Assembly (NCBI RefSeq): GCF_001983935.1
Contig: NZ_CP017641.1
Span: 2,170,001-2,234,000 of the forward strand
DNA length: 64,000 bases
Origin: Fuerstiella marisgermanici
Lineage (GTDB): Bacteria; Planctomycetota; Planctomycetia; Planctomycetales; Planctomycetaceae
Direction: 5' to 3'
Positions 3,656 through 33,705 of the stretch are shown here, in pieces (position 1 is the stretch's first letter; every line of letters starts with the position of its first letter). Under the pieces are notes generated by a model, which searched no databases, had not been told where the DNA came from, and was given only the letters and a program-made list of their open reading frames with translations. Position numbers and translations under genes: made by a program.

Positions 3656-4018
3656 GTGTAGCGCGATCGTGGCCTTCGACCCCGGGTCTCCGAGCTTCGC
3701 TCGCCAAAACGCGAAACTCAGTGTTGCCTTTAGCAGGTCCGAATGCCTGGGCAGATACCGAGAAAACATGCATTTCGGGGCTCAATACCATTCACGGTTT
3801 GGGCGGCCAGCCCAGTCCATTCGTCCTCACTACCTTTCTGTGTACGCTTCAACGCAACTGTTACCAGTGACGCTGCAACACTCGATACCGGGCCTCAGGC
3901 TAAGAGTTACCCGGACGGGATTCGCACCCGCTTGTCAATAAACCATTTCCAGTTCGCTCCGGACCCGCACGATAGGTGGTGTGGGGAGGGTCACCGGAAA
4001 CGGTGGCCCTTACCCGAT

Positions 4019-4714: not shown

Positions 4715-4888
4715 CTCACCGTGTCGGTCTTGCTGGCTAACATATCTTCTACGGAAAATGTCCGTATAAGTCCGGACGTAGCCTGTTGAGTGTGGCGACG
4801 GGTTTCCCTGCTGTCAATGAAATCTCTGCCTTAATGCGATTCCTCGAAGACTCGGACATGTGGGCTTCCGATTTATACTGGTAACCCA

Positions 4889-4955
4889 GTTGCGGTAGGT
4901 CAGGCTGTGCCTGACTCGCAGCACGGCGTCAGGCACAGCCTGACCTACGTCTACT
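4889..4955. repeat. 67-bp palindromic repeat, copy 1
   Basis: Perfect 21-bp arms (GTAGGTCAGGCTGTGCCTGAC and its complement) flank an 11-13 nt loop. The whole 67 bp is identical to 5324-5390. Its right end abuts the REP-like repeat at 4954-5070. The rest of 4715-5096 contains only these repeats. Confidence 0.9.
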
Positions 4956-5070
4956 GGCCGCCGGGATTGGAACATGATGACCAGTTCGCAACCGATCTGT
5001 AGTCGACCCCCACGATGATCCATCTTGTGCCTGCGGCACCCAACCGCCATGAACGGCGGTCGGGCCACCC
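4954..5070. repeat. 117-bp REP-like repeat, copy A
   Basis: The 117 bp match 6991-7107 with a single mismatch. The unit contains a CCGCC-ATGAA-GGCGG hairpin and ends in GGTCGGGCCACCC. Copy B lies directly behind the RAYT transposase, so this is probably a dispersed non-coding copy moved by that enzyme class. Confidence 0.85.
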
Positions 5071-5096
5071 GGCGAATCCCAGTCTCTTCCGACGAG

Positions 5097-5285
5097 TCAT
5101 AAGTCATCGGTTTTTACCAACAGCAGCCCGACACCGGCAACGAGCATGGCAAATGAGAACATCCACACAAGCTCAACCTTGTCTGTAAAAAAGCTCGTCC
5201 TGTCAAACGCCGCACCCATTCCAAACAAGAACCCGAGCGGGGCCAAATGTAAGAGAATAGCCCCAGCAACCTTGTATCCGTTCAT
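5097..5285 (-). CDS. Small two-segment membrane protein
   Basis: A 62-residue protein starts at the ATG at 5285 (MNGYKVAGAIL...). Two hydrophobic segments at about residues 6-26 and 38-58 are joined by a short polar loop containing DRTSFFTDK. No family is recognised. It lies between the two copies of the 67-bp palindrome and ends close to REP-like copy A. Its hydrophobic pattern is regular enough to be a real gene, but it could also be a remnant. Confidence 0.45.
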   Translation of the reverse strand: MNGYKVAGAILLHLAPLGFLFGMGAAFDRTSFFTDKVELVWMFSFAMLVAGVGLLLVKTDDL

Positions 5286-5323
5286 TTTGGCACAATAACG
5301 CTGTCCGAGGCATAACAATGTAA

Positions 5324-5390
5324 GTTGCGGTAGGTCAGGCTGTGCCTGACTCGCAGCACGGCGTCAGGCACAGCCTGACCTACGTCTACT
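5324..5390. repeat. 67-bp palindromic repeat, copy 2
   Basis: This is identical over 67 bp to 4889-4955, in the same orientation. The perfect 21-bp arms could act as a bidirectional terminator, but the identity of the two copies argues for a mobile or gene-converted unit. Confidence 0.9.
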
Positions 5391-5862
5391 GTTATTCCGC
5401 AAGCACTACGGTACTCGACTGCAAAGATGATCGCATCGAACCCACACACCAATTCAACACATTTCCCGGACGCCACTGGGCAAAGCCAGTGGAACCCGTG
5501 CGGAAGCCGGCCTGGCTGACGGCAAAACGGTTGAACTGGAAACGTACGTATGTTTCCTTGAGTGGTTTGAACGACGTACGAAACACAAATCGTTGTAAAC
5601 GACAGTGAGCTTCCGTTGCTGGGGACAATGTTACTTGCAAGACACCGTCTGAAGATTGACTACGAGCAGCAAACGGTATCGATCCGATAGCATAGAAGTC
5701 AGGCTGATTCTCCACTTCACTTGGCATCATGTTGAGGAGTGAATACAGTGGTGTTGGAATAATGGTGTTGGTTTCCACAGACGGACTGCACAAGGGCATG
5801 CCGCACGCAGGTGGTGTGGCACTTTATGAACTCTACTTTCCGTTATCCAAACCGTATAAGTC
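5391..5862. other. Gap with only a weak open frame
   Basis: A minus-strand open frame (5392-5799) begins with a plausible ATG but runs into the palindrome copy and shows no recognised family, signal or membrane segment. It may be a decayed gene end. No RNA gene or strong hairpin was seen in the rest. Confidence 0.35.
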
Positions 5863-18844: not shown

Positions 18845-19270
18845 CCGGGATGCCCCGGCGGGCGATTGGCGTGGCAGGCGTGTGACGGTTGGAAAACCGT
18901 TGCGCCGGCGGTGCTCACGTTGTTCGCTGGCGGTGGTGTGACGTTCGAAACGTCGAAGCAATTGCACGATTAGAAGCCCGGCTTCTCAAACAAGCCGGGC
19001 TTCTTCGTGCGCCGGGATGCCCCGGCGGGCGGTTGGCGTGGCAGGCGGGTGACGGTTGGAAGACTGAAGCGCCGGCGGTGCTCACGTTGTTCGCTGGCGG
19101 TGTTGTGACGTTCGAAACGTCGAAGCAATTACACGATCAGGAGCCCGGCTTCTCAAACAAGCCGGGCTTCTTCGTGCGCCGGGATGCCCCGGCGGGCGGT
19201 TGGCGTGGCAGGCGGGTGACGGTCGAAGACAGTTGCGCCGGCGGTGCTCACGTTGTTCGCTGGAGGTGTT
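18844..19270. repeat. 167-bp tandem repeat, 2.5 copies
   Basis: Unit 1 spans 18844-19010, unit 2 spans 19011-19177, and a partial unit 3 runs from 19178 to about 19270. Each begins GCCGGGATGCCCCGGCGGGC and is about 90% identical to the next. Units 1 and 2 end in a GAAGCCCGGCTT/AAGCCGGGCTTC hairpin; unit 3 stops before it. It fills the whole fae-to-dipeptidase interval. A diverged relative lies at 55147-55239. Confidence 0.9.
18973..19003. terminator. Terminator-like hairpin after fae
   Basis: Perfect 12-bp arms GAAGCCCGGCTT and AAGCCGGGCTTC with a 7-nt loop are followed by TTCGTGC. A near copy is at 19141-19170. Placed between convergent genes, both could terminate transcription in either direction. 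Confidence 0.65.
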
Positions 19271-23252: not shown

Positions 23253-23608
23253 GGTTTAGTTCTCTGAGCTTTAGGTAGGATTGAACGAACCAGTTGGTCG
23301 TCGCAAAACCGCTTCTGTAAACAGTTGGCTTAACATTCAGGATTGTGAACGGGATCGCAATTGCGACTGACTTGTCGCCAGCGATTGACCTTGCGGCACG
23401 CTCACAGCTGATGTTTTCGCGTCTGTTCCGTTAGGTAGGAATTGTTGACTGGTTCAGGAGGGAGTCTAATTGGAACCGACGAGGCAGCAAATCACAAGCC
23501 AGTAAATCTTTGCCTGGCTGCAACAACCGCCTTGCGTAACGAAGACAGCATGAAATAATTAACAACCTTTAGGCGAGCAAACACGGAACAGTGGACAGGA
23601 AACCGGGA
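23253..23608. other. Divergent gap, qcrA/PSD1
   Basis: About 356 bp between divergent genes. No RNA gene or repeat seen; promoters for both directions must be here. A purine-rich ACAGGAAACC before the ATG at 23609 is the likely ribosome-binding site. Confidence 0.4.
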
Positions 23609-26470
23609 ATGACAATAACTAAGAAACTAGCGGCTTGTTTTTCGCTGTTTTTTCTTATGAACGCATCGCTTTGCAGCGTGCAGGCTGATGAGGGCGATCG
23701 CCTGTTTACTCTGCGGGTGCTGCCACTACTGAAAGAAAAGTGCTTTGGCTGCCATGCCTCAACCCCGGATGACCTCAAGGGCGACTACGCCGTCGATTCG
23801 CGCGAAGCGCTGCTGGAAGGCGGCGAATCGGGCGATCCGTCTATCGTGCCCGGAAAGCCGGAGGACAGCGTGCTGTACCAGGCGGTGATGTGGGAGGGCT
23901 ACGAAATGCCGCCCAAGGAAAACGATCGGCTGACCAAACGGCAAACCGAGTATGTCCGACGCTGGATAGAATTAGGAGCTCCCTGGCCGGAAGAAGCCAA
24001 ACAACAGGAAATCCGCGAGGCCGAGTGGGCCGTCCGTGAAAATGAAGACGGCCTGATTGTGGATACCAGCGGCGGCACCGCTGACGAATGGACGTACCGA
24101 CGCTACCAGCCCGCAGACACGTGGGCGTTTCAGCCCGTGAAGTCGAAATCAGACTTCGATCCGTCGCCCGGCGAAGCGGATCATCCGGTCGACTTTTTTA
24201 TCGGTCGGCAGCTTGCCTCGGCCAAACTTCAGCCGGCGGAACGGGCTGACGCCAGCACGTTGATTCGGCGAGCCACCTACGACTTGACGGGACTTCCACC
24301 GACGCCGGAAGAAGTCGAACAATTTCAGGCATCGTCGAAAAAAGATGCCACGAAGGCGTATGAGAACCTCATCGACCGCTTGCTGGCCAGTCCTCATTAT
24401 GGCGAACGACAAGCTCAGCACTGGTTGGACGTCGTTCGATACGCAGACACCGGGGGCTTCAGCAACGACTACGAACGCAGCAACGCGTGGCGATACCGCG
24501 ACTACGTGATTCGATCCTTTAATGATGACAAACCGTTCAATCAGTTTGTGATGGAGCAGATTGCGGGCGACGAAATCGCAGATGCAACATCTGAAAGTCG
24601 GAAAAAGGACGCAGCAGTCGCATCGAACATTGGCTTTTCTTTAAGCCAGGCAGAAGGTGCGGTCGCGACGGGTTTTCTACGGCTGGGGCCTTGGGGAACG
24701 GCCATGATTCCTCAGGAAGAAGCTCGCCAGATTTACCTGGACGACCTTGTCCACACAACGGGGCAAGCGTTTCTTTCGATGCCACTGCGCTGTTGTCGCT
24801 GTCATGATCACAAATTCGATCCGATCCCGACGCGAGACTATTACCGCATCTATGCCGCGTTCGCGACGACTCAGCCAGCCGAAGTAGAAGCCGAATTTCT
24901 GCAGGAAGAAAACCTCAGCGGCTTCGATGAAAAGCGAAAGCTGGTGGAAGAACTACTGGCCTTTGCGAAGGCAGATCTAAAAACCGTCAACGACAAAATG
25001 GAGGCGGCCGCAAAAGCGTGGTACGCCGAACATGACCTCCCATACAAAAACGAGAACGCTCGACAGAAAGATCCGGAAGACAAAAAGCCACCGCGACACG
25101 TGGGCCTGACGCCTGAAGAAAAGGGCATCAAGAAAGTACGCGAACAGGACGTCTGGATTTGGGAACGCCGTCTGGAACGCTATCAGCCGATGGCTCAAAG
25201 CGTGTACAACGGCCCGGACAAATGGTCCAACGCTCGCAAGTTACGGCCTGCCCCAAAGGTCGACAAATCATGGCGTCCGCCCACGTTTATCCTGACCGGC
25301 GGTGCTCTGGAAGCCAAAGGCGATCCGGTAGGACCGGGCGTGCTGAGTGCCACGGGGCTGCCAGTCAAGGGAAGCGCTGGGCAACAACCTGTTGAAGACG
25401 ATCCTTGGCGAATCAGCGACGACCTGTCCGGTCGCCGCCTGCAACTCGCACGCTGGATCGCCAGCGACAAGAACCCGCTGACCGCTCGATCGTTTGTAAA
25501 CCGCATCTGGCAGTCGCATTTCGGCACCGGCATCGTCAAAACGGCGAACAACTTCGGTGCGAAAGGCAGCAAGCCGACGCATCCAGAATTGCTGGATTGG
25601 CTGACCGCAGATTTCATTGAAAACGGCTGGAAGGTGAAGCGACTGCATCGCCTGATTATGACGTCCGATGCGTGGCAGCGATCCGGCAGCCATAACAACC
25701 TGAAGCATCTGGAAACAGTCGATCCCAACAACAACCTGCTGGCTCGTTTTCCGGCGAGGCGTCTGACAGCTGAAGAATTCCGTGACACAGCGCTGCTGTT
25801 AAGCGGTGAACTGAATCGAGAAATGGGCGGAGTTCCCATCATGCCGGAAATGAACATGGAAGTCGCATTGCAGCCGCGCATGATTCAATTTTCGATTGCT
25901 CCGGCACATCAGCCGTCGCGAACTCCGGCAGAACGCAACCGTCGTACGATCTACACTTACCGGGTTCGAGGCCAGGCAGACCCTCTGCTGGAAATCCTGA
26001 ATCTGCCCAACCCGAATGAAAGCTGTGAACTGCGAGACGCCGCAGCCGTGACGCCTCAGGCCTTCACACTGATGAACAGCGACGTGGTCACCGACCGATC
26101 CATCGCGTTTGCGTCTCGCGTGCAGTCTGATCAGCCGAATGCCCCCGCCACGCAAATTCATCAGGCCATGCGACTGGCGTTCGGCCGAACACCTTCGCCC
26201 CACGAACAATCCAGCCTGCTGGAGTACTACAAAAAGATGCTGGCCTATCACGAAGACCATACGCCTGAAGAAGTCGCATACCCAACTCAGGTGACTCGCT
26301 CGCTGGTCGAAGAATTCACCGGGGAACCCTTCGAATTCATCGAACTACTAAACGTGTACAACGACTATGTACCGGACAAAAAGCCCTGGACAGTTTCAGC
26401 GCAGACCCGAGCGATGGCCGATGTTTGTTTACTATTGTTGAACAGCAACGAGTTGCTTTACGTCTATTAA
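23609..26470 (+). CDS. PSD1 cytochrome-c domain protein (DUF1549/DUF1553)
   Basis: A 953-residue exported protein. The ATG at 23609 gives the signal peptide MTITKKLAACFSLFFLMNASLCSVQA; a GTG at 23591 is also in frame. Domains in order are a planctomycete-type cytochrome c with CFGCH at about residue 45 and KPEDSVLYQAVMWEGYEMPPKENDRL; then DUF1549 (about 185-400: DFFIGRQL..LIRRATYDLTGLPPTPEEV, HYGERQAQHWLDVVRYADTGG); and DUF1553 (about 630-890: RLQLARWIASDKNPLTARSFVNRIWQSHFG). The family is abundant in planctomycetes, usually beside DUF1501, and is thought to act on polysaccharides or associated substrates in the periplasm; its activity is unknown. The partner DUF1501 gene lies beyond a four-helix-bundle cassette. 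Confidence 0.92.
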   Translation: MTITKKLAACFSLFFLMNASLCSVQADEGDRLFTLRVLPLLKEKCFGCHASTPDDLKGDYAVDSREALLEGGESGDPSIVPGKPEDSVLYQAVMWEGYEMPPKENDRLTKRQTEYVRRWIELGAPWPEEAKQQEIREAEWAVRENEDGLIVDTSGGTADEWTYRRYQPADTWAFQPVKSKSDFDPSPGEADHPVDFFIGRQLASAKLQPAERADASTLIRRATYDLTGLPPTPEEVEQFQASSKKDATKAYENLIDRLLASPHYGERQAQHWLDVVRYADTGGFSNDYERSNAWRYRDYVIRSFNDDKPFNQFVMEQIAGDEIADATSESRKKDAAVASNIGFSLSQAEGAVATGFLRLGPWGTAMIPQEEARQIYLDDLVHTTGQAFLSMPLRCCRCHDHKFDPIPTRDYYRIYAAFATTQPAEVEAEFLQEENLSGFDEKRKLVEELLAFAKADLKTVNDKMEAAAKAWYAEHDLPYKNENARQKDPEDKKPPRHVGLTPEEKGIKKVREQDVWIWERRLERYQPMAQSVYNGPDKWSNARKLRPAPKVDKSWRPPTFILTGGALEAKGDPVGPGVLSATGLPVKGSAGQQPVEDDPWRISDDLSGRRLQLARWIASDKNPLTARSFVNRIWQSHFGTGIVKTANNFGAKGSKPTHPELLDWLTADFIENGWKVKRLHRLIMTSDAWQRSGSHNNLKHLETVDPNNNLLARFPARRLTAEEFRDTALLLSGELNREMGGVPIMPEMNMEVALQPRMIQFSIAPAHQPSRTPAERNRRTIYTYRVRGQADPLLEILNLPNPNESCELRDAAAVTPQAFTLMNSDVVTDRSIAFASRVQSDQPNAPATQIHQAMRLAFGRTPSPHEQSSLLEYYKKMLAYHEDHTPEEVAYPTQVTRSLVEEFTGEPFEFIELLNVYNDYVPDKKPWTVSAQTRAMADVCLLLLNSNELLYVY

Positions 26471-26479
26471 GTGCAAAAC

Positions 26480-26972
26480 GAATATCGAATGCCGAACAAG
26501 GAATTTCGAATTGCGAAGTGAGCCGCAAAGGGGCGAGGTACAATGGGGCAAAAGTACGCGTTCGACCTGGAAGATCGATTGGTAGAATTCGCAGTTCGGA
26601 TCATCAGTGTGGTAGAAGCGTTGCCGGAGACTCGAGTTGGAAAGCATGTTGCCGGTCAACTGGTTCGGTCCGCAACTTCGCCAGCCCCAAACTACGGCGA
26701 AGCACAGAGCGCCGAATCCCGCAAAGACTTTATTCACAAGCTGAAGGTGGCACTGAAAGAACTGCGTGAAACAATGATCTGGCTGAAGATTATCGAACGC
26801 AAACCATTGTGTTCACCAGATCGCACGAAAGACATCATCGAAGAATGCAACCAACCGATTTCGATCTTCGTCAAGAGCATAGAAACCGCCAGATCGAAAC
26901 CATAAAGGTCTGAAATCGACCCACTGCGGTTCACTTCGTCATTCGAAATTCCTTGTTCAACATTCGACATTC
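26480..26972. mobile_element. Inverted-repeat-bounded four-helix-bundle gene cassette
   Basis: Arms 26480-26527 and 26925-26972 are inverted copies (42 of 48 positions match; core GAACAAGGAATTTCGAAT). They enclose only the gene at 26543-26905. The cassette sits between PSD1 and DUF1501 genes, which are normally adjacent. It contains no transposase. The unit looks insertable, but no target duplication was recognised. Confidence 0.65.
26543..26905 (+). CDS. Four-helix-bundle protein (S23 family)
   Basis: A 120-residue protein of the 23S rRNA intervening-sequence/four-helix-bundle family, which also includes the Avd proteins of diversity-generating retroelements. Visible family features are F.LEDRLVEFAVRII.VVEALP.TRVG.HVAGQLVRSATS, NYGEAQSAESRKDFIHKLKVALKELRET and WLKIIERK. 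A GAGG lies 4 nt before the ATG. Members form basic pentamers that bind nucleic acid; the cellular role of free-standing copies is unknown. The gene lies between inverted repeats and is not in an rRNA operon or beside a DGR reverse transcriptase. Confidence 0.9.
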   Translation: MGQKYAFDLEDRLVEFAVRIISVVEALPETRVGKHVAGQLVRSATSPAPNYGEAQSAESRKDFIHKLKVALKELRETMIWLKIIERKPLCSPDRTKDIIEECNQPISIFVKSIETARSKP

Positions 26973-26990
26973 AACTTCCGAGTCAAAGCT

Positions 26991-28379
26991 ATGTCCCTCA
27001 TTCCACGTCGAAACTATCTCTACGGCCTCGGATCTTCCCTTGGCGCCCTTGCCCTAACCGACCTGCTGGCGGCAGACACGCCGAAGGCAGGTCCGCTGGC
27101 TCCGAAGAAGCCACAACAGCCAGCGAAGGCGAAAGCCGTCATCATGCTGTTCATGGAGGGCGGGCCGAGTCACGTCGACACCTTCGACCCCAAGCCGTAT
27201 CTCAACGCCCTTCATGTAAAGGAATCGACTCGCACAAAGGGCCTGGCCACCGGCAAGCGGTTCTACGTCGGTAGCCCGTTTAAGGCGCGCAAGGTGGGGA
27301 ACGCTGGGATCGAAATGAGTGAACCGTGGCAGTTTCTTGCAGACGCGGAAGTCGCCGACGAATTGTGCGTGTATCGCGGCTGTAAGGCGGAATCACTAAA
27401 CCACCCGGAAGCGTTGCTGCACATGAACACGGGCAGCCGGCTGGGCGGCGATCCGGGCCTGGGAGCGTGGGCGACGTACGGCCTTGGATCCGAAAATCAA
27501 AACCTGCCGGGCTACGTCGTCATGACGGAACTCGCCCTGCCGCAGGCCGGTCCGGCGAACTGGACCAACGGTTTCCTGCCCGCGCACTATCAGGGAACCC
27601 GGCTGCGATCGACTGGCTCCCCGATTCTGGACCTGAATCCGCCGAAGTTTAAGACGCGTGAGCACCAAAGACAGGCACTCGACCAATTAGCAATGCTGAA
27701 TGCGACTCACGCCGAACGGCATCCCGAACATCGCGACCTTGCCGCTCGCATGGAAAGCTACGAATTGGCGTTTCGGATGCAGACCGAAATTCCTGGCATC
27801 GTCGATATCGACAGTGAACCAGCACACATTCAAAAGTCGTACGGTCTGGACCGCAAAGAATGTGAAGCGTTCGGGCGGCAGTGTCTGATGGCTCGGCGGC
27901 TGGTCGAAGAAGGCGTTCGCTTTGTGCAGATCTTTAGCGGTGGCTGGGATAGCCACGACTACCTGGAGAAAGGCCATTCCTCACGAATTAACAGTGTCGA
28001 CCAGCCGATCGCGGCGTTGATCAAAGACCTGAAAGCGAAAGGATTGCTGGAAGATACGCTGGTCGTCTGGACGGGCGAATTCGGTCGCACGCCAGACAAC
28101 AATTATCGCGGCGGAGTCACCGCACTGGGCCGCGGCCACAACGTCGATGCAATGAACATGTGGTTTGCTGGTGGCGGCGTCAAAAAGGGAACCATCGTCG
28201 GCGCGACGGACGAAATCGGGGCGGAAGCGGTCGACGTTGTGCATCCAATCCGCGATGTCCATGTGACACTGCTACACCTGCTGGGACTGGACGACAACAA
28301 ACTGACCTACTTCCACGGCGGACGCTACAAGCAGTTGTCTCAGTTTGGCGGTGAAGTGATTCAGGAACTGGTGGGGTAG
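26991..28379 (+). CDS. DUF1501 protein
   Basis: A 462-residue protein with a twin-arginine-like start (PRRNYLYGLGSSLGALALTDLLAA), so export by Tat is likely. Motifs are KAVIMLFMEGGPSHVDTFDPKP, ESLNHPEALLHMNTGS, FGRQCLMARRLVEEGVRFVQIFSGGWDSH and VVWTGEFGRTPDNN..GRGHNV. It belongs to the alkaline-phosphatase/sulfatase-like superfamily but lacks the usual C-x-P-x-R sulfatase site. It is normally encoded directly after a PSD1 protein and probably works with it. Its ATG lies 18 nt after the right arm of the inverted repeats. Confidence 0.92.
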   Translation: MSLIPRRNYLYGLGSSLGALALTDLLAADTPKAGPLAPKKPQQPAKAKAVIMLFMEGGPSHVDTFDPKPYLNALHVKESTRTKGLATGKRFYVGSPFKARKVGNAGIEMSEPWQFLADAEVADELCVYRGCKAESLNHPEALLHMNTGSRLGGDPGLGAWATYGLGSENQNLPGYVVMTELALPQAGPANWTNGFLPAHYQGTRLRSTGSPILDLNPPKFKTREHQRQALDQLAMLNATHAERHPEHRDLAARMESYELAFRMQTEIPGIVDIDSEPAHIQKSYGLDRKECEAFGRQCLMARRLVEEGVRFVQIFSGGWDSHDYLEKGHSSRINSVDQPIAALIKDLKAKGLLEDTLVVWTGEFGRTPDNNYRGGVTALGRGHNVDAMNMWFAGGGVKKGTIVGATDEIGAEAVDVVHPIRDVHVTLLHLLGLDDNKLTYFHGGRYKQLSQFGGEVIQELVG

Positions 28380-30102: not shown

Positions 30103-33100
30103 TTAAGCAGGGCTGGCGAAGTCCAGCAAACCGTCGAGTCCCACACTGGCCAGACGTTCCATCAAGGAATCCAGCAAGCCCGACACATCAGCGATTGAAT
30201 CGCTCTCAAAACGCTTCACGCTTGGCTCAGATACAAACGTCGTGGAACTATCAACGTCCAACGCGTCCGTTCCGGCCCCACCGTCTGCCGTCACTTTGCC
30301 GCCCAGTGAGTTTGCTCCAACCAGTACGACCTGGTCGTTGTCTCGGCCGGCGTCGACACTGACATTGCCAAGGTGAGACGAGTCACGGATCGCGAAGACG
30401 TCGTCCCCACGCTTGGTGGAAATAGTCGTCTTGCCACCAACGGTCACACCATCACCGAAGATCGCATCCTGACCATTGCCCGTCACGATCTTCGCGGCGT
30501 CACCAATTTCCGAATCCTGAATCACGATGGTGTTGTGGCCCGAAGACGTCTTGACATCAAGATTGTCCGCTACCGCCAATTCAGAAGCGAGCAGGTAATT
30601 ATCGCCTCCGTCCAACCGCACCGTCACATCGTCGCCGACAGAAAGATTCTGGATGATCAGAGCGTCGTCACCGTCGTTTAGATCGACTCGAAGATCGCCT
30701 GGAATTGCTGTCCATGACTGGCTGACCCATGGCGTGCTGTGACCATCGATCGTGGTATCGCCCAGTCCTTCAACTGTGACAAATCCTGCAGAGTTCGTGT
30801 AAACCAGAACGCCGTTGCCCGCGTTGTCACCGGTCAAAATCAGGTGATTGCCGGACACGCGAACTTTGACATTGCCCTGACCATCAAAGTCAGTCGAACC
30901 TCCGCCGCCACCGATTTCACGATTGCCGAAGTTAATGTCTTCGACCGTTTGGCCCGGAGTTACCGTCAGGCTGTAGGCTGCTGGGTTCAACGCGTCGTAG
31001 ATCAGTTCCGGACTCGCGTGGTAATCAGCAGACAACTGCCCGATCTTTGTGCCACTTAGGTTGTCTCTTGCACTGCCGTTCCATTCGAAGAACGAACCAT
31101 CTGGAGTCACGAAGTACCAGTTGCTGTCGCCCAGCATCCAGCGTTCGCCAAGACCACCCCAGTTGTTAAACAGGCTGCGGCTGTACCGCAGATTAAGTTC
31201 GCTGTCTAACTTGAAGGCTTCAGCAGCAACCGCATCGGCGGGTGACGTCTGCTCCCAACCAGCCTGGACCACTTCGCGAACGGTCCACTGACCAGGCGTC
31301 ACATCGTTAAACGAATACCAACCGGATTCAACACCGGGAGTGATCACGTTGTCGCCGTTGATGTCCATGTCGGCCGTAATGGTTGAACCAACAACTACAC
31401 CGTCAGCATTCAGAAGCTCAATCGTCCAACCGTTCAGCCACGGCTCATCGTCGCTGCGTTGACCGTCGCCATTCAGATCGTTCCACTTGCGACCGGTAAT
31501 CGAAGCAGGATTGCCGATGTTAAAGTTGCCAAAGTTGACGTTGGGGGACGTCTGGTTGGCCACAACGGTGTAGGTATCGCTGACGGCTGGAATGGCGTCG
31601 AACAGCAAGCTCGGATCCTGGTGGTATTCCGGGCTAAAAGTTTCGACCAAGTCGCCAGACAGGTTGTCGCGAGGGCTGCCGTTCCATGCATATAGCGAAC
31701 CATCGGGCGTCACGTAGTACCAGTTGTTGGCACCAAGGAACCATGTTTCACCAAGTCCGCCCCAGTTTTCAAAGGCACTTGTTGTTTCGCGGAATTCCAG
31801 TTGGGAATCCAGCTCGAATGCCCGAGCAGCCAGACGGCTCGCGGGAGCGGTTTGCTTCCAGCCATCCTGAGGAACTTCTTCAAGCGTGTAGGTGCCTGGC
31901 GTTGTTGAGAAGCGGAACCAGCCCATTTCCGTCGCGGGATCAATCTGGTTGTCGCCATTGAAATCGATATCACCAGTCACCTGAGAATCGATTGTCTGGC
32001 CGGCCGCGTTGACCAGCAGAATCGTCCAGCCATTCAAAAACGGCTCGTTGGCGTCCCGGAAACCGTCGCCGTTCAGGTCGTTGAACTTACGGCCCTGAAG
32101 AATTCCGTTCGAGCTTTCATCAACGTCGGTCACCGTGACTACAATGTTCTGAAGAGCGGAACCGCCGTTGCCGTCCGTCACAGTGACTTGCAGGTTGTAG
32201 ATATTGTCGCCACCCGTGTCGCCGGGGATTTCGAAGTCCGGAGCAACTTTGAAAGTGACAACACCGGTCGCCGCGTTGATGTTGAAGTCGTCGCTATCAG
32301 ATCCTCCCGTGATCGCGTAGGTCAGAGTATCGCCGTCCGCGTCTGTCGCGTTAACGTCGATTGCTGAAACCTGGTTCTCAGCCACCGACACGGCCGCTGC
32401 AGAACTAATCACAGGATTCTGATTCGTTTGCTCAACGACGTTGGTTACCGTGATGGCAATATTCTGCGAGGCAGAGCCGCCATTGCCGTCATTTGCTGTA
32501 ACCACAATGTCGTAAACGTTGTTGCCACCAACATCGCCAGGAGCTTCAAAATCGGGAGCTGCCTTGAAGGTCACAACACCTGTCGACGCCACGATGTTGA
32601 ACAAGCTGGCGTCCGCTCCACCGGAAATTGAGTAGGTAATCGTGTCTCCGTCGGCGTCGGTCGCGTTGACATCAATGGCAGAAGTTTGGTTTTCCTGCAC
32701 CGACGCACTGGCCGCGGAATTGATGACGGGATTCTGGTTCGCTGTTTCATTGACATCGGTCACCGTGATGGCGATGTCCTGTGAAGCGGTTCCACCATTG
32801 CCGTCGGTGACCGTTACCGAGAAGTTATAGACATTGTTAGCACCGGCATCTGCGGGTGCTTCAAAATCTGGAGCCGTCTTGAACGTTACAAGACCACTGC
32901 TGCCATTGATGTCGAACAGTCCCGCGTCCGCACCGCCAGAAAGTGCGTACGTCAGCGTATCACCGTCGGCGTCAGTTGCATTGACATCAATTGCTGTCAG
33001 CTGGTTTTCCGGAACAGAATCGCTGGCAGCGGACGCAATCACTGGGTCAGCATTTCCCGCGGGGGCATTGAGCATCAGTGGGGTCTGCTGGAATTCAAAT

Positions 33101-33705
33101 GAGGCCCCCTGCCCAACAACGTTTCCCGTTTCGTTGGCTGAGAAGTTAACCGTCGTTCCCGTGAAGCCAGCTTTAGCTGTGAACGTCGCGGTATACAGGG
33201 TCAACCCCGACGCGGAGGGTGAGTTCGGCCATCCGAAAAACAGGGCAAAGTCGCTGTCTGTGTAACTGGCTACCAGAACATCATTGGTTGATGCGTCGTT
33301 GTCGTCACCAGAAACCTCGCTTTCAGCTCGCACGGCCGTCGGAACTGCTGTTAGGCCTTCTGTAAAAATACCGGCCGGAGCCGTCTCGACAAACTCAAGT
33401 TGCGTTGAGTCAAAGTGCAGGTTGAAACTAATGAGATTGGACTGAAGGGCCGCTGCAGTCCCACTGTCATCAAGAGTTTGGTAGATCACGGGAACAGTGA
33501 AAGTGTCACCCGCCGAAACGGTTTTGGTGGTCACATCAGACGCGATCAGCTGAGCCGCCAGCAGGGCTCGATCTTCCAGCTTTTCGAGGGTTGAAGCTGG
33601 TCGCAGATGGGCTGCTCGCCCAAATGAGCCGTGCCGCGTCATCTTGCTGCGCCGCGATCGCGATCCGTGGCCCTCAGAGAACAGTGATTTCAGAATCTTT
33701 TGCAT
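30103..33705 (-). CDS. Large secreted cohesin/cadherin/SdrD-like protein
   Basis: A 1200-residue protein. An Arg-rich start leads to LEKLEDRALLAAQL, the planctomycete LEPRxLL-type N-terminal export signal. Residues about 55-215 look like a cohesin domain. Three cadherin-like repeats of about 100 residues follow (each with SVPENQ/SVQENQ..AIDVNATDADGDTLTY and PDFEAPGD..NVYDI.VTANDGNGG). Two SdrD-B-like blocks start near 533 and 738 (GRKFNDLNGDGFRDANEPFLNGW), each with a related WYYVTPDGSLYAWNGS insert. The C-terminal 300 residues repeat short Asp/Gly-rich strands (VRLDGGDNYLL, GDDAL). It is probably a calcium-binding cell-surface or extracellular adhesin. Confidence 0.88.
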   Translation of the reverse strand: MQKILKSLFSEGHGSRSRRSKMTRHGSFGRAAHLRPASTLEKLEDRALLAAQLIASDVTTKTVSAGDTFTVPVIYQTLDDSGTAAALQSNLISFNLHFDSTQLEFVETAPAGIFTEGLTAVPTAVRAESEVSGDDNDASTNDVLVASYTDSDFALFFGWPNSPSASGLTLYTATFTAKAGFTGTTVNFSANETGNVVGQGASFEFQQTPLMLNAPAGNADPVIASAASDSVPENQLTAIDVNATDADGDTLTYALSGGADAGLFDINGSSGLVTFKTAPDFEAPADAGANNVYNFSVTVTDGNGGTASQDIAITVTDVNETANQNPVINSAASASVQENQTSAIDVNATDADGDTITYSISGGADASLFNIVASTGVVTFKAAPDFEAPGDVGGNNVYDIVVTANDGNGGSASQNIAITVTNVVEQTNQNPVISSAAAVSVAENQVSAIDVNATDADGDTLTYAITGGSDSDDFNINAATGVVTFKVAPDFEIPGDTGGDNIYNLQVTVTDGNGGSALQNIVVTVTDVDESSNGILQGRKFNDLNGDGFRDANEPFLNGWTILLVNAAGQTIDSQVTGDIDFNGDNQIDPATEMGWFRFSTTPGTYTLEEVPQDGWKQTAPASRLAARAFELDSQLEFRETTSAFENWGGLGETWFLGANNWYYVTPDGSLYAWNGSPRDNLSGDLVETFSPEYHQDPSLLFDAIPAVSDTYTVVANQTSPNVNFGNFNIGNPASITGRKWNDLNGDGQRSDDEPWLNGWTIELLNADGVVVGSTITADMDINGDNVITPGVESGWYSFNDVTPGQWTVREVVQAGWEQTSPADAVAAEAFKLDSELNLRYSRSLFNNWGGLGERWMLGDSNWYFVTPDGSFFEWNGSARDNLSGTKIGQLSADYHASPELIYDALNPAAYSLTVTPGQTVEDINFGNREIGGGGGSTDFDGQGNVKVRVSGNHLILTGDNAGNGVLVYTNSAGFVTVEGLGDTTIDGHSTPWVSQSWTAIPGDLRVDLNDGDDALIIQNLSVGDDVTVRLDGGDNYLLASELAVADNLDVKTSSGHNTIVIQDSEIGDAAKIVTGNGQDAIFGDGVTVGGKTTISTKRGDDVFAIRDSSHLGNVSVDAGRDNDQVVLVGANSLGGKVTADGGAGTDALDVDSSTTFVSEPSVKRFESDSIADVSGLLDSLMERLASVGLDGLLDFASPA

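Follow-up and report, generated by a model that had tools for sequence, protein, structure and literature searches.

How does a gene of the S23 four-helix-bundle family come to lie between inverted repeats, inside a gene pair of Fuerstiella marisgermanici whose members normally stand next to each other? The window analysed here is the whole stretch of 64,000 nucleotides around this locus, taken from a genome (label G000) that is a single contig of 8.92 Mb. The cassette takes up 493 bp (26480–26972, + strand) between the gene of a PSCyt1-PSCyt2-PSD1 protein upstream (23591–26470, +) and that of a DUF1501 protein downstream (26991–28379, +), both assigned by ORF and domain match. Its left arm (26480–26536, +) begins 9 nt past the PSD1 stop codon, and its right arm (26916–26972, −), an inverted copy of the left one, ends 18 nt ahead of the DUF1501 start codon. 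Between them lies the sole gene of the cassette (26543–26905, +; 120 aa), which matches PF05635 and TIGR02436.

The original prediction, made from the sequence alone, had described an S23-family gene carried by itself between 48-bp inverted repeats, with no transposase. We found that the arms match at 42 of 48 positions (26480–26527 against 26925–26972) and that a longer pairing (26480–26536 with 26916–26972) gives 48 matches in 57, whereas the best inverted 48-mer match in 200 Markov shuffles of both flanks was 30 (mean 22.9). The S23 gene is the only ORF of at least 60 aa wholly inside the arms, and neither a transposase nor a reverse transcriptase was found there, so this part of the prediction was borne out. 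It had missed that the arms are built of heptamers and that most S23 genes examined carry a version of their own. Read in sevens, the left arm consists of about six degenerate units of the CGAATNN type (CGAATAT, CGAATGC, CGAACAA, GGAATTT, CGAATTG and CGAAGTG); the arms in the window are arrays of degenerate heptamers, unlike ordinary unique terminal repeats.

The RNA of 26465–26990 has a predicted fold of −182.3 kcal/mol (z −6.1), in which the paired arms form a long stem. Terminal inverted repeats, as in insertion sequences and in the intervening sequences (IVSs) of rRNA, are thus present; there is no rRNA among the four Rfam matches in the 64-kb window, and the cassette is without the rRNA location that defines an IVS. 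The four matches are to group II introns on both strands (1316–2060 and 3670–3924), perhaps several introns or remnants, and we draw no link between these signals near the window start and the S23 cassette. Elsewhere in the window, strong short hairpins with a REP-like look occur as inverted pairs at 4886–5391 and 18972–19171 (GTCAGGCACAGCCTGACCTACG type; AGAAGCCCGGCTTCT type), and a surface-type protein of 1200 aa with cadherin, Ig-like and SdrD_B domains is encoded at 30103–33705 (−).

The S23 protein of the window matched PF05635 with E 2.1e-14 and 54.1 bits (curated cut-off 33.8) and TIGR02436 with E 1.7e-22 and 79.7 bits (curated cut-off 24). Its predicted monomer model (pLDDT 92.7) is a four-helix bundle like those of solved members, with TM scores (query) of 0.80–0.83 to 2rld and 0.75–0.84 to 2gsc, the latter being Xcc0516 of X. 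campestris, a solved S23 protein; both structures have five chains each. A weaker fold match was Avd of a Bordetella phage diversity-generating retroelement, or DGR (4dwl; TM 0.71, Foldseek E 0.07). S23 structures have been at hand since 2006 (2gsc), and the available part of PMC4990558 describes the X. campestris S23 protein as a pentamer and the function of S23 proteins as not known. Avd is essential for retrohoming and is resembled by PF05635, according to the accessible portion of PMC10053308.

We then compared cassettes from same-family genomes and from genomes of several phyla. From 216 S23 hits in 205 loci, 9 near a contig end and 11 duplicates were dropped, leaving 196 cassettes, and 146 genes of at least 200 aa from the same loci served as controls. 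The results showed that the pairing score of a cassette's own arms had a median of 42, against 21 for mismatched flanks, and that 144 of the 196 cassettes lay above the 95th percentile of the cross-pairs, as against 3 of the 146 control genes. Arm self-identity was 0.50–0.55 at lags 7, 14 and 21 and 0.39–0.40 at lags 6 and 8, whereas control genes gave 0.39–0.40 at lag 7, 0.40–0.41 at lag 14 and 0.46–0.47 at lag 21, and shuffles 0.38–0.43. Both arms were periodic in 73 of the 196 cassettes, and in 57 of these 73 their heptamers agreed at six or more of seven positions, compared with 6.7% of random pairs. Among 392 arms, 211 could be scored as arrays (median 4.4 units per arm, mode 4); among the shuffled arms, 0 of 392 could. 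In the subset of loci from named genomes, sorted into groups by record title, own arms passed the test in 13/15 cassettes from Planctomycetota, 22/28 from Verrucomicrobiota, 17/22 from Bacteroidota with Balneolaceae and 6/10 from others, and one or both flanks showed the 7-nt period in 12/15, 23/28, only 9/22 and 5/10, respectively. The arm test was failed by 52 of the 196, including L162 (Syntrophorhabdus) and the Patescibacteria-type L181, L184 and L196. A test that pairs the flanks would miss cases such as several Xanthomonadales cassettes whose right arm falls within the 3' end of the S23 ORF.

These results indicate that inverted heptamer arms are the usual anatomy of S23 genes and that each cassette has its own unit. 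Within G000 itself there are three further S23 genes, around each of which inverted low-complexity blocks can be made out by eye, with a unit that differs per gene; an alignment search in this genome confirmed an inverted arm pair for the window cassette and L003 only. Stop codons in each of the three frames are provided by 27 of 111 arrays, so the idea that this is a constant feature of left arms was discarded.

The motif of the arms follows the protein between them. When pairs with homologous neighbours (longest ORFs, blastp 1e-4) were set aside, 18,592 cassette pairs remained, in which the arms were more alike the more identical the S23 proteins were (Spearman 0.285); the highest value in 300 permutations was 0.108. 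The median arm score was 17 below 45% protein identity, 27 at 55–65% and 36 at 65–80%. One exception is L103, whose protein is 78–81% identical to those of L100 and L101 and whose arms score only 21 and 18 against theirs; the same arms score 38 against those of the window.

The cassettes are placed close behind upstream genes. In 73 cases with a scorable array behind a co-directional upstream gene, the array begins a median of 2 nt past the stop codon of that gene (quartiles −3 and 11 nt), and in 25 of them array and stop codon overlap. At tandem junctions the S23 gene is co-directional with its neighbours in 126 cases and opposite in 19, and the other junctions are divergent (30), convergent (18) or without an orientation call (3); as the longest ORFs stood in for the neighbours, individual calls may be in error. 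By eye, L021, L026 and L033, from three genomes, each hold an S23 cassette between likely ATP synthase gamma and beta genes, with differing heptamers. Searching with the single query L195, we found 0 tblastn matches among 50,697 phage records and matches in 25 plasmid records, mostly cyanobacterial. The three cyanobacterial plasmid cassettes examined have GGGTGTA or GGAGTAG arms with the heptamer period. The cassettes of two Calothrix plasmids are embedded in about 3.2 kb of shared sequence, so that no separate jump of the cassette is evident there. On plasmid pNe_5 of Nostoc edaphicum (L319), an S23 gene with GGAGTAG-type arms lies antisense between annotated ribonucleotide reductase beta and alpha genes.

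The cassette had also been predicted to split a normally adjacent PSD1/DUF1501 pair and to be a mobile unit. We took the best DUF1501 match in each of 30 same-family genomes including G000 (70–100% identity) and found PSD1 directly upstream in 29 of the 30 loci. The S23 gene is absent from 26 of these 29 junctions (gaps of 20–286 nt), as expected of a pair that is normally adjacent, and the cassette is present in three (gaps of 490–523 nt), those of G000, G094 and G010, which belong to three genera. It is therefore not fixed at this locus, and the junctions without it include those of other members of the genera of G000 and G094. In the congener G132, the junction of 139 nt appears by eye to hold decayed arms and no gene. 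The closest S23 relative within the genus (L102 of G127, 72% identical, one internal stop codon) lies beside a different DUF1501 gene (60% identical) and has an arm of the window type. On a maximum-likelihood tree of S23, the three copies at PSD1/DUF1501 junctions need 3 changes, and the starred branches force only 1, so that a single vertical origin and several origins both fit.

Copies of the window arms were also found away from the cassette, and neither outcome named beforehand as speaking against the prediction (arms absent elsewhere, or a cassette fixed at one locus in all relatives) was thus observed. An inverted pair of them at 3260844–3261023 of contig C1 of G000, 99 nt apart and with no S23 match, is a short gene-less copy with a MITE-like look, and a single arm lies at 3097118–3097155. 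Among 8 genomes of the genus searched with the window arms, matches occurred in two, G000 and G127, those in G127 being weak (E 0.002–0.006) and located at its own cassette and at two other sites; the six other congeners gave 0 matches, including G077 and G137, which have S23 relatives, and G132 with its decayed remnant. Arms elsewhere in G000 and a cassette in three of 29 junctions together support mobility, by distribution only. At these junctions, where the intergenic DNA of the empty ones in the nearest relatives is too diverged to align, we saw neither a target-site duplication nor an exact empty site, and we found no recent jump or moving enzyme for the cassette; we thus infer movement from its distribution. 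Of the mobile unit without transposase, the second half stands and the first is supported to that extent. In the same-genus pair G076 and G119, the alignable flanks stop at the cassette edges, and the slot of the G076 cassette (L047) holds in G119 (L254) a 553-aa AAA ATPase with DUF4435 between the same flanks; with another insert there, the pair gives the edges of conserved DNA and no empty site.

Gene-less arms were further sought with L024 as query, 40 of the 112–164 first-look candidates being scored per genome. Among the matches listed for the S23-bearing genomes G066 and G089, at least 20 of 34 (17 separate sites) and at least 5 of 20, respectively, fell within arm parts, as did 0 of the 23 listed for G023, a genome without S23, where the search was not exhaustive. 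AGTGGCC-type heptamers are visible in 16 of 19 stretches, which represent all 17 G066 sites (16 stretches) and 3 of the 5 G089 sites; L256, L260 and L271 do not show them. In stretches sampled from several genomes (800 kb), one weak heptamer array each was found in G023 and G048, both without S23, and none in G038 (without S23) or G000 (with S23). The G066 sample, with S23, contained two long arrays, L278 18698–18860 (GTAGACG) and L284 8072–8232 (GCCTACT); these are near-perfect, with more than 20 units, and far longer than typical cassette arms. The weak arrays of G023 and G048 rule out that heptamer arrays are restricted to genomes with S23. The association with S23 is one for a given motif and not for heptamers in general.

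The first alternative is that the cassette is a resident regulatory module, old, vertically inherited, often lost and immobile, with arms that are autoregulatory or RNase III sites and are kept alike by selection or gene conversion. The strong predicted RNA stem speaks for it, as do the mostly co-directional placement of S23 with the operon and the copies at one junction in three genera. At the window junction the arms co-vary, with CGAA/TTCG in G000 and CCAA/TTGG in G010 (by eye, not in every unit). Certain junctions also recur in Xanthomonadales, where about half of the 30 cassettes read lie, by eye, at a carA-carB or accB-accC junction, and arms of GGGATTC, GGGACTC or GGGACCG units are frequent among them. 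This explanation fails to account for arms that recur without the gene elsewhere in their genome, for the arm-protein correlation among non-homologous loci, and for a junction cassette present in G000 and G094 and absent in their congeners, and we regard it as unlikely. Still less probable in our judgement is that an ordinary transposase acting in trans, such as a RAYT, moves a MITE-like element whose ends are the arms and whose cargo is S23. The inverted ends and the shorter gene-less copies do look MITE-like, but the ends are degenerate heptamer arrays whose motif varies by cassette even within one genome, unlike fixed terminal repeats, and the motif follows the S23 protein.

The relation between arms and dispersed repeats was analysed in 299 genomes of the order of the 'Lysobacterales' genome L188, taken as Xanthomonadales. 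PF05635 was detected at E <= 1e-3 in 116 of them. Three or more tandem GGGANTC units occurred in 65/116 genomes with S23 versus 17/183 without (Fisher p 1e-18, kinship ignored), and at least 20 array sites in 41/116 versus 5/183 (kinship likewise ignored); the arrays are absent from 51 of the 116. A search for hidden S23 in the 17 array-bearing genomes without it gave nothing at E <= 1 in 15 and two weak partial matches, none of them credible. For the 30 cassettes read, all five genomes with tandem GGGANTC arms have at least 5 sites, compared with 8 of the 25 without such arms; G185, with GGGACCG arms and 294 GGGANTC sites, is a loose fit only.

A further 40 genomes with S23, outside the 30 cassettes already read, were compared with one cassette each, 20 of them array-rich (at least 45 sites) and 20 array-free; they were picked from listings and are non-random, and several rich ones look closely related. 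Flanks with three or more GGGANTC units were found in 13/20 array-rich versus 0/20 array-free genomes (kinship ignored), and flanks with at least one unit in 17/20 versus 3/20. Some heptamer array was present in a flank in 20/20 and 16/20, respectively, in the latter mostly of other units. The first cassette of G416 did not fit, and its second, L395, has GGGACTC arms with 7 GGGANTC units. Among 11 further cassettes from six multi-copy genomes, GGGANTC arms were present in one (L395), a single unit in one and none in nine. The reversed-motif control CTNAGGG occurred in 8 genomes with S23 (302 sites) and 6 without (29 sites), with 221 sites in G209, 51 in G223 and 21 in G196. G223 has GGGCTGA arms and G209 has two cassettes, one with GGGCCCA-type and one with TTACGTT arms, so the reversed control is itself a near motif there; the GGCGAAT arms of G196 do not fit its CTNAGGG sites. 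Taken together, the motif in the arms goes with the S23 protein and, more loosely and in part, with the dispersed heptamer repeats of the genome. An origin of the heptamer arrays in slippage of a polymerase or in template switching, independent of S23, whose genes would merely sit there, is very improbable, since this idea, raised for heptamer repeats in the available text of PMC4692102 and favoured by arrays in some genomes without S23, predicts neither inverted pairs around one gene family nor the S23-array association and the concordance of array and arm motifs in Xanthomonadales.

We therefore prefer to see the cassette as a mobile element, and it probably belongs to a large class of IVS-like selfish elements that lie between cistrons, have no transposase and seed dispersed heptamer repeats with their solo arms. 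In such a scheme, gene and arms would travel together and settle within operons, directly after stop codons, and arms left or copied without the gene would give rise to solo heptamer arrays and hairpins. The arm duplex in RNA could let RNase III cut the element from the operon message, as for IVSs, and the insertion would thereby be tolerated. Much more tentatively, as the likeliest mechanism, a putative S23 homopentamer may recognise its own arms with about one heptamer per subunit and, like Avd, escort nucleic acid to a host copying or recombining enzyme acting in trans. If each subunit of a pentameric ring reads a single heptamer, the period of 7 and the four to five units would both be accounted for. 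The TRAP protein offers an analogy for a ring that reads repeated units. No S23 protein is known to be a nuclease, and its relatedness to Avd points to an enzyme acting in trans as its partner, which may be a reverse transcriptase.

It is conceivable, though somewhat short of an even chance, that the whole picture holds: that S23 with inverted heptamer arms is a distinct and very widespread transposase-less mobile element, that the heptamer repeats reported as the most abundant intergenic tandem repeats of prokaryotes are largely its solo arms, and that the S23 ring dictates their period, with each subunit reading a single heptamer and each S23 lineage its own. S23 arms may help to explain the origin of common and puzzling bacterial heptamer repeats, whose abundance is without clear explanation in the accessible part of PMC6344855; similar repeats were left unexplained in the available texts of Rehm et al. 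(PMC4692102) and MacGregor (PMC4679880). As S23 and heptamer repeats are linked by anatomy, motif and co-occurrence, the function of S23 and the origin of the repeats are both directly testable, with a predicted seven-base target beside each S23 gene.

Several known systems have features in common with the cassette. The REP/RAYT system shares with S23 cassettes a gene flanked by inverted repeats that have relatives scattered over the genome. Its gene encodes a Y1 nuclease (RAYT) and its repeats (REPs) are palindromic, unlike the heptamer arrays that form the cassette arms. The S23 protein has the same fold class as Avd of DGRs (PDB 4dwl, 8ub7), but, unlike a DGR with Avd, the cassette lacks a reverse transcriptase, and its arms leave no space between them for template and variable repeats.

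Its arms resemble the GGGAATC and GGGGA(C/T)T repeats of Xanthomonas and Nostoc, which are heptamer arrays between aligned ORFs. As far as the available text of Rehm et al. 2015 (PMC4692102) goes, two Xanthomonas genomes have 186 and 183 GGGAATC arrays, which form inverted pairs in 70 and 75 cases, favour four units, lie near stop codons and have a role given as not known; the repeats were reported there without a linked gene and studied as G-quadruplex repeats, and 'S23' and 'four helix' are absent from that text. Xanthomonadales S23 cassettes, in turn, often carry GGGAATC-like motifs as arms. The heptanucleotide elements of Geobacter metallireducens (PMC2700814), a genome with scattered GGGACCG arrays, and the TAACTGA repeats of Beggiatoaceae (PMC4679880) are likewise dispersed arrays of few heptamers; unlike S23 arms, they have been proposed in the portions available as regulator binding sites, and 'S23' is absent from both texts. 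Beyond Coxiella, we found no link between S23 and heptamer arrays in the open-access literature, which was covered mostly by titles and abstract openings, with subscription papers and bioRxiv largely outside it.

The closest known kind is the 23S rRNA IVS with an S23 ORF, from which the cassette is set apart by its location. In the available part of PMC4990558, such ORFs lie in IVSs with terminal inverted repeats that are excised by RNase III. The IVS sits in a helix of 23S rRNA and is cut out there, whereas the cassette lies between protein genes and its excision is hypothetical; dispersed arm copies, found for cassettes, are not described for the IVS in that part of the paper (PMC4990558). 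The nearest counterpart is the IVS of Coxiella burnetii, termed a selfish element (PMC4990558), which like the cassette holds an S23-family ORF in sense orientation inside a terminal inverted repeat with a stable stem-loop, and which has three tandem heptamers (GACAGAT) and a degenerate one upstream of its ORF (PMC4990558).
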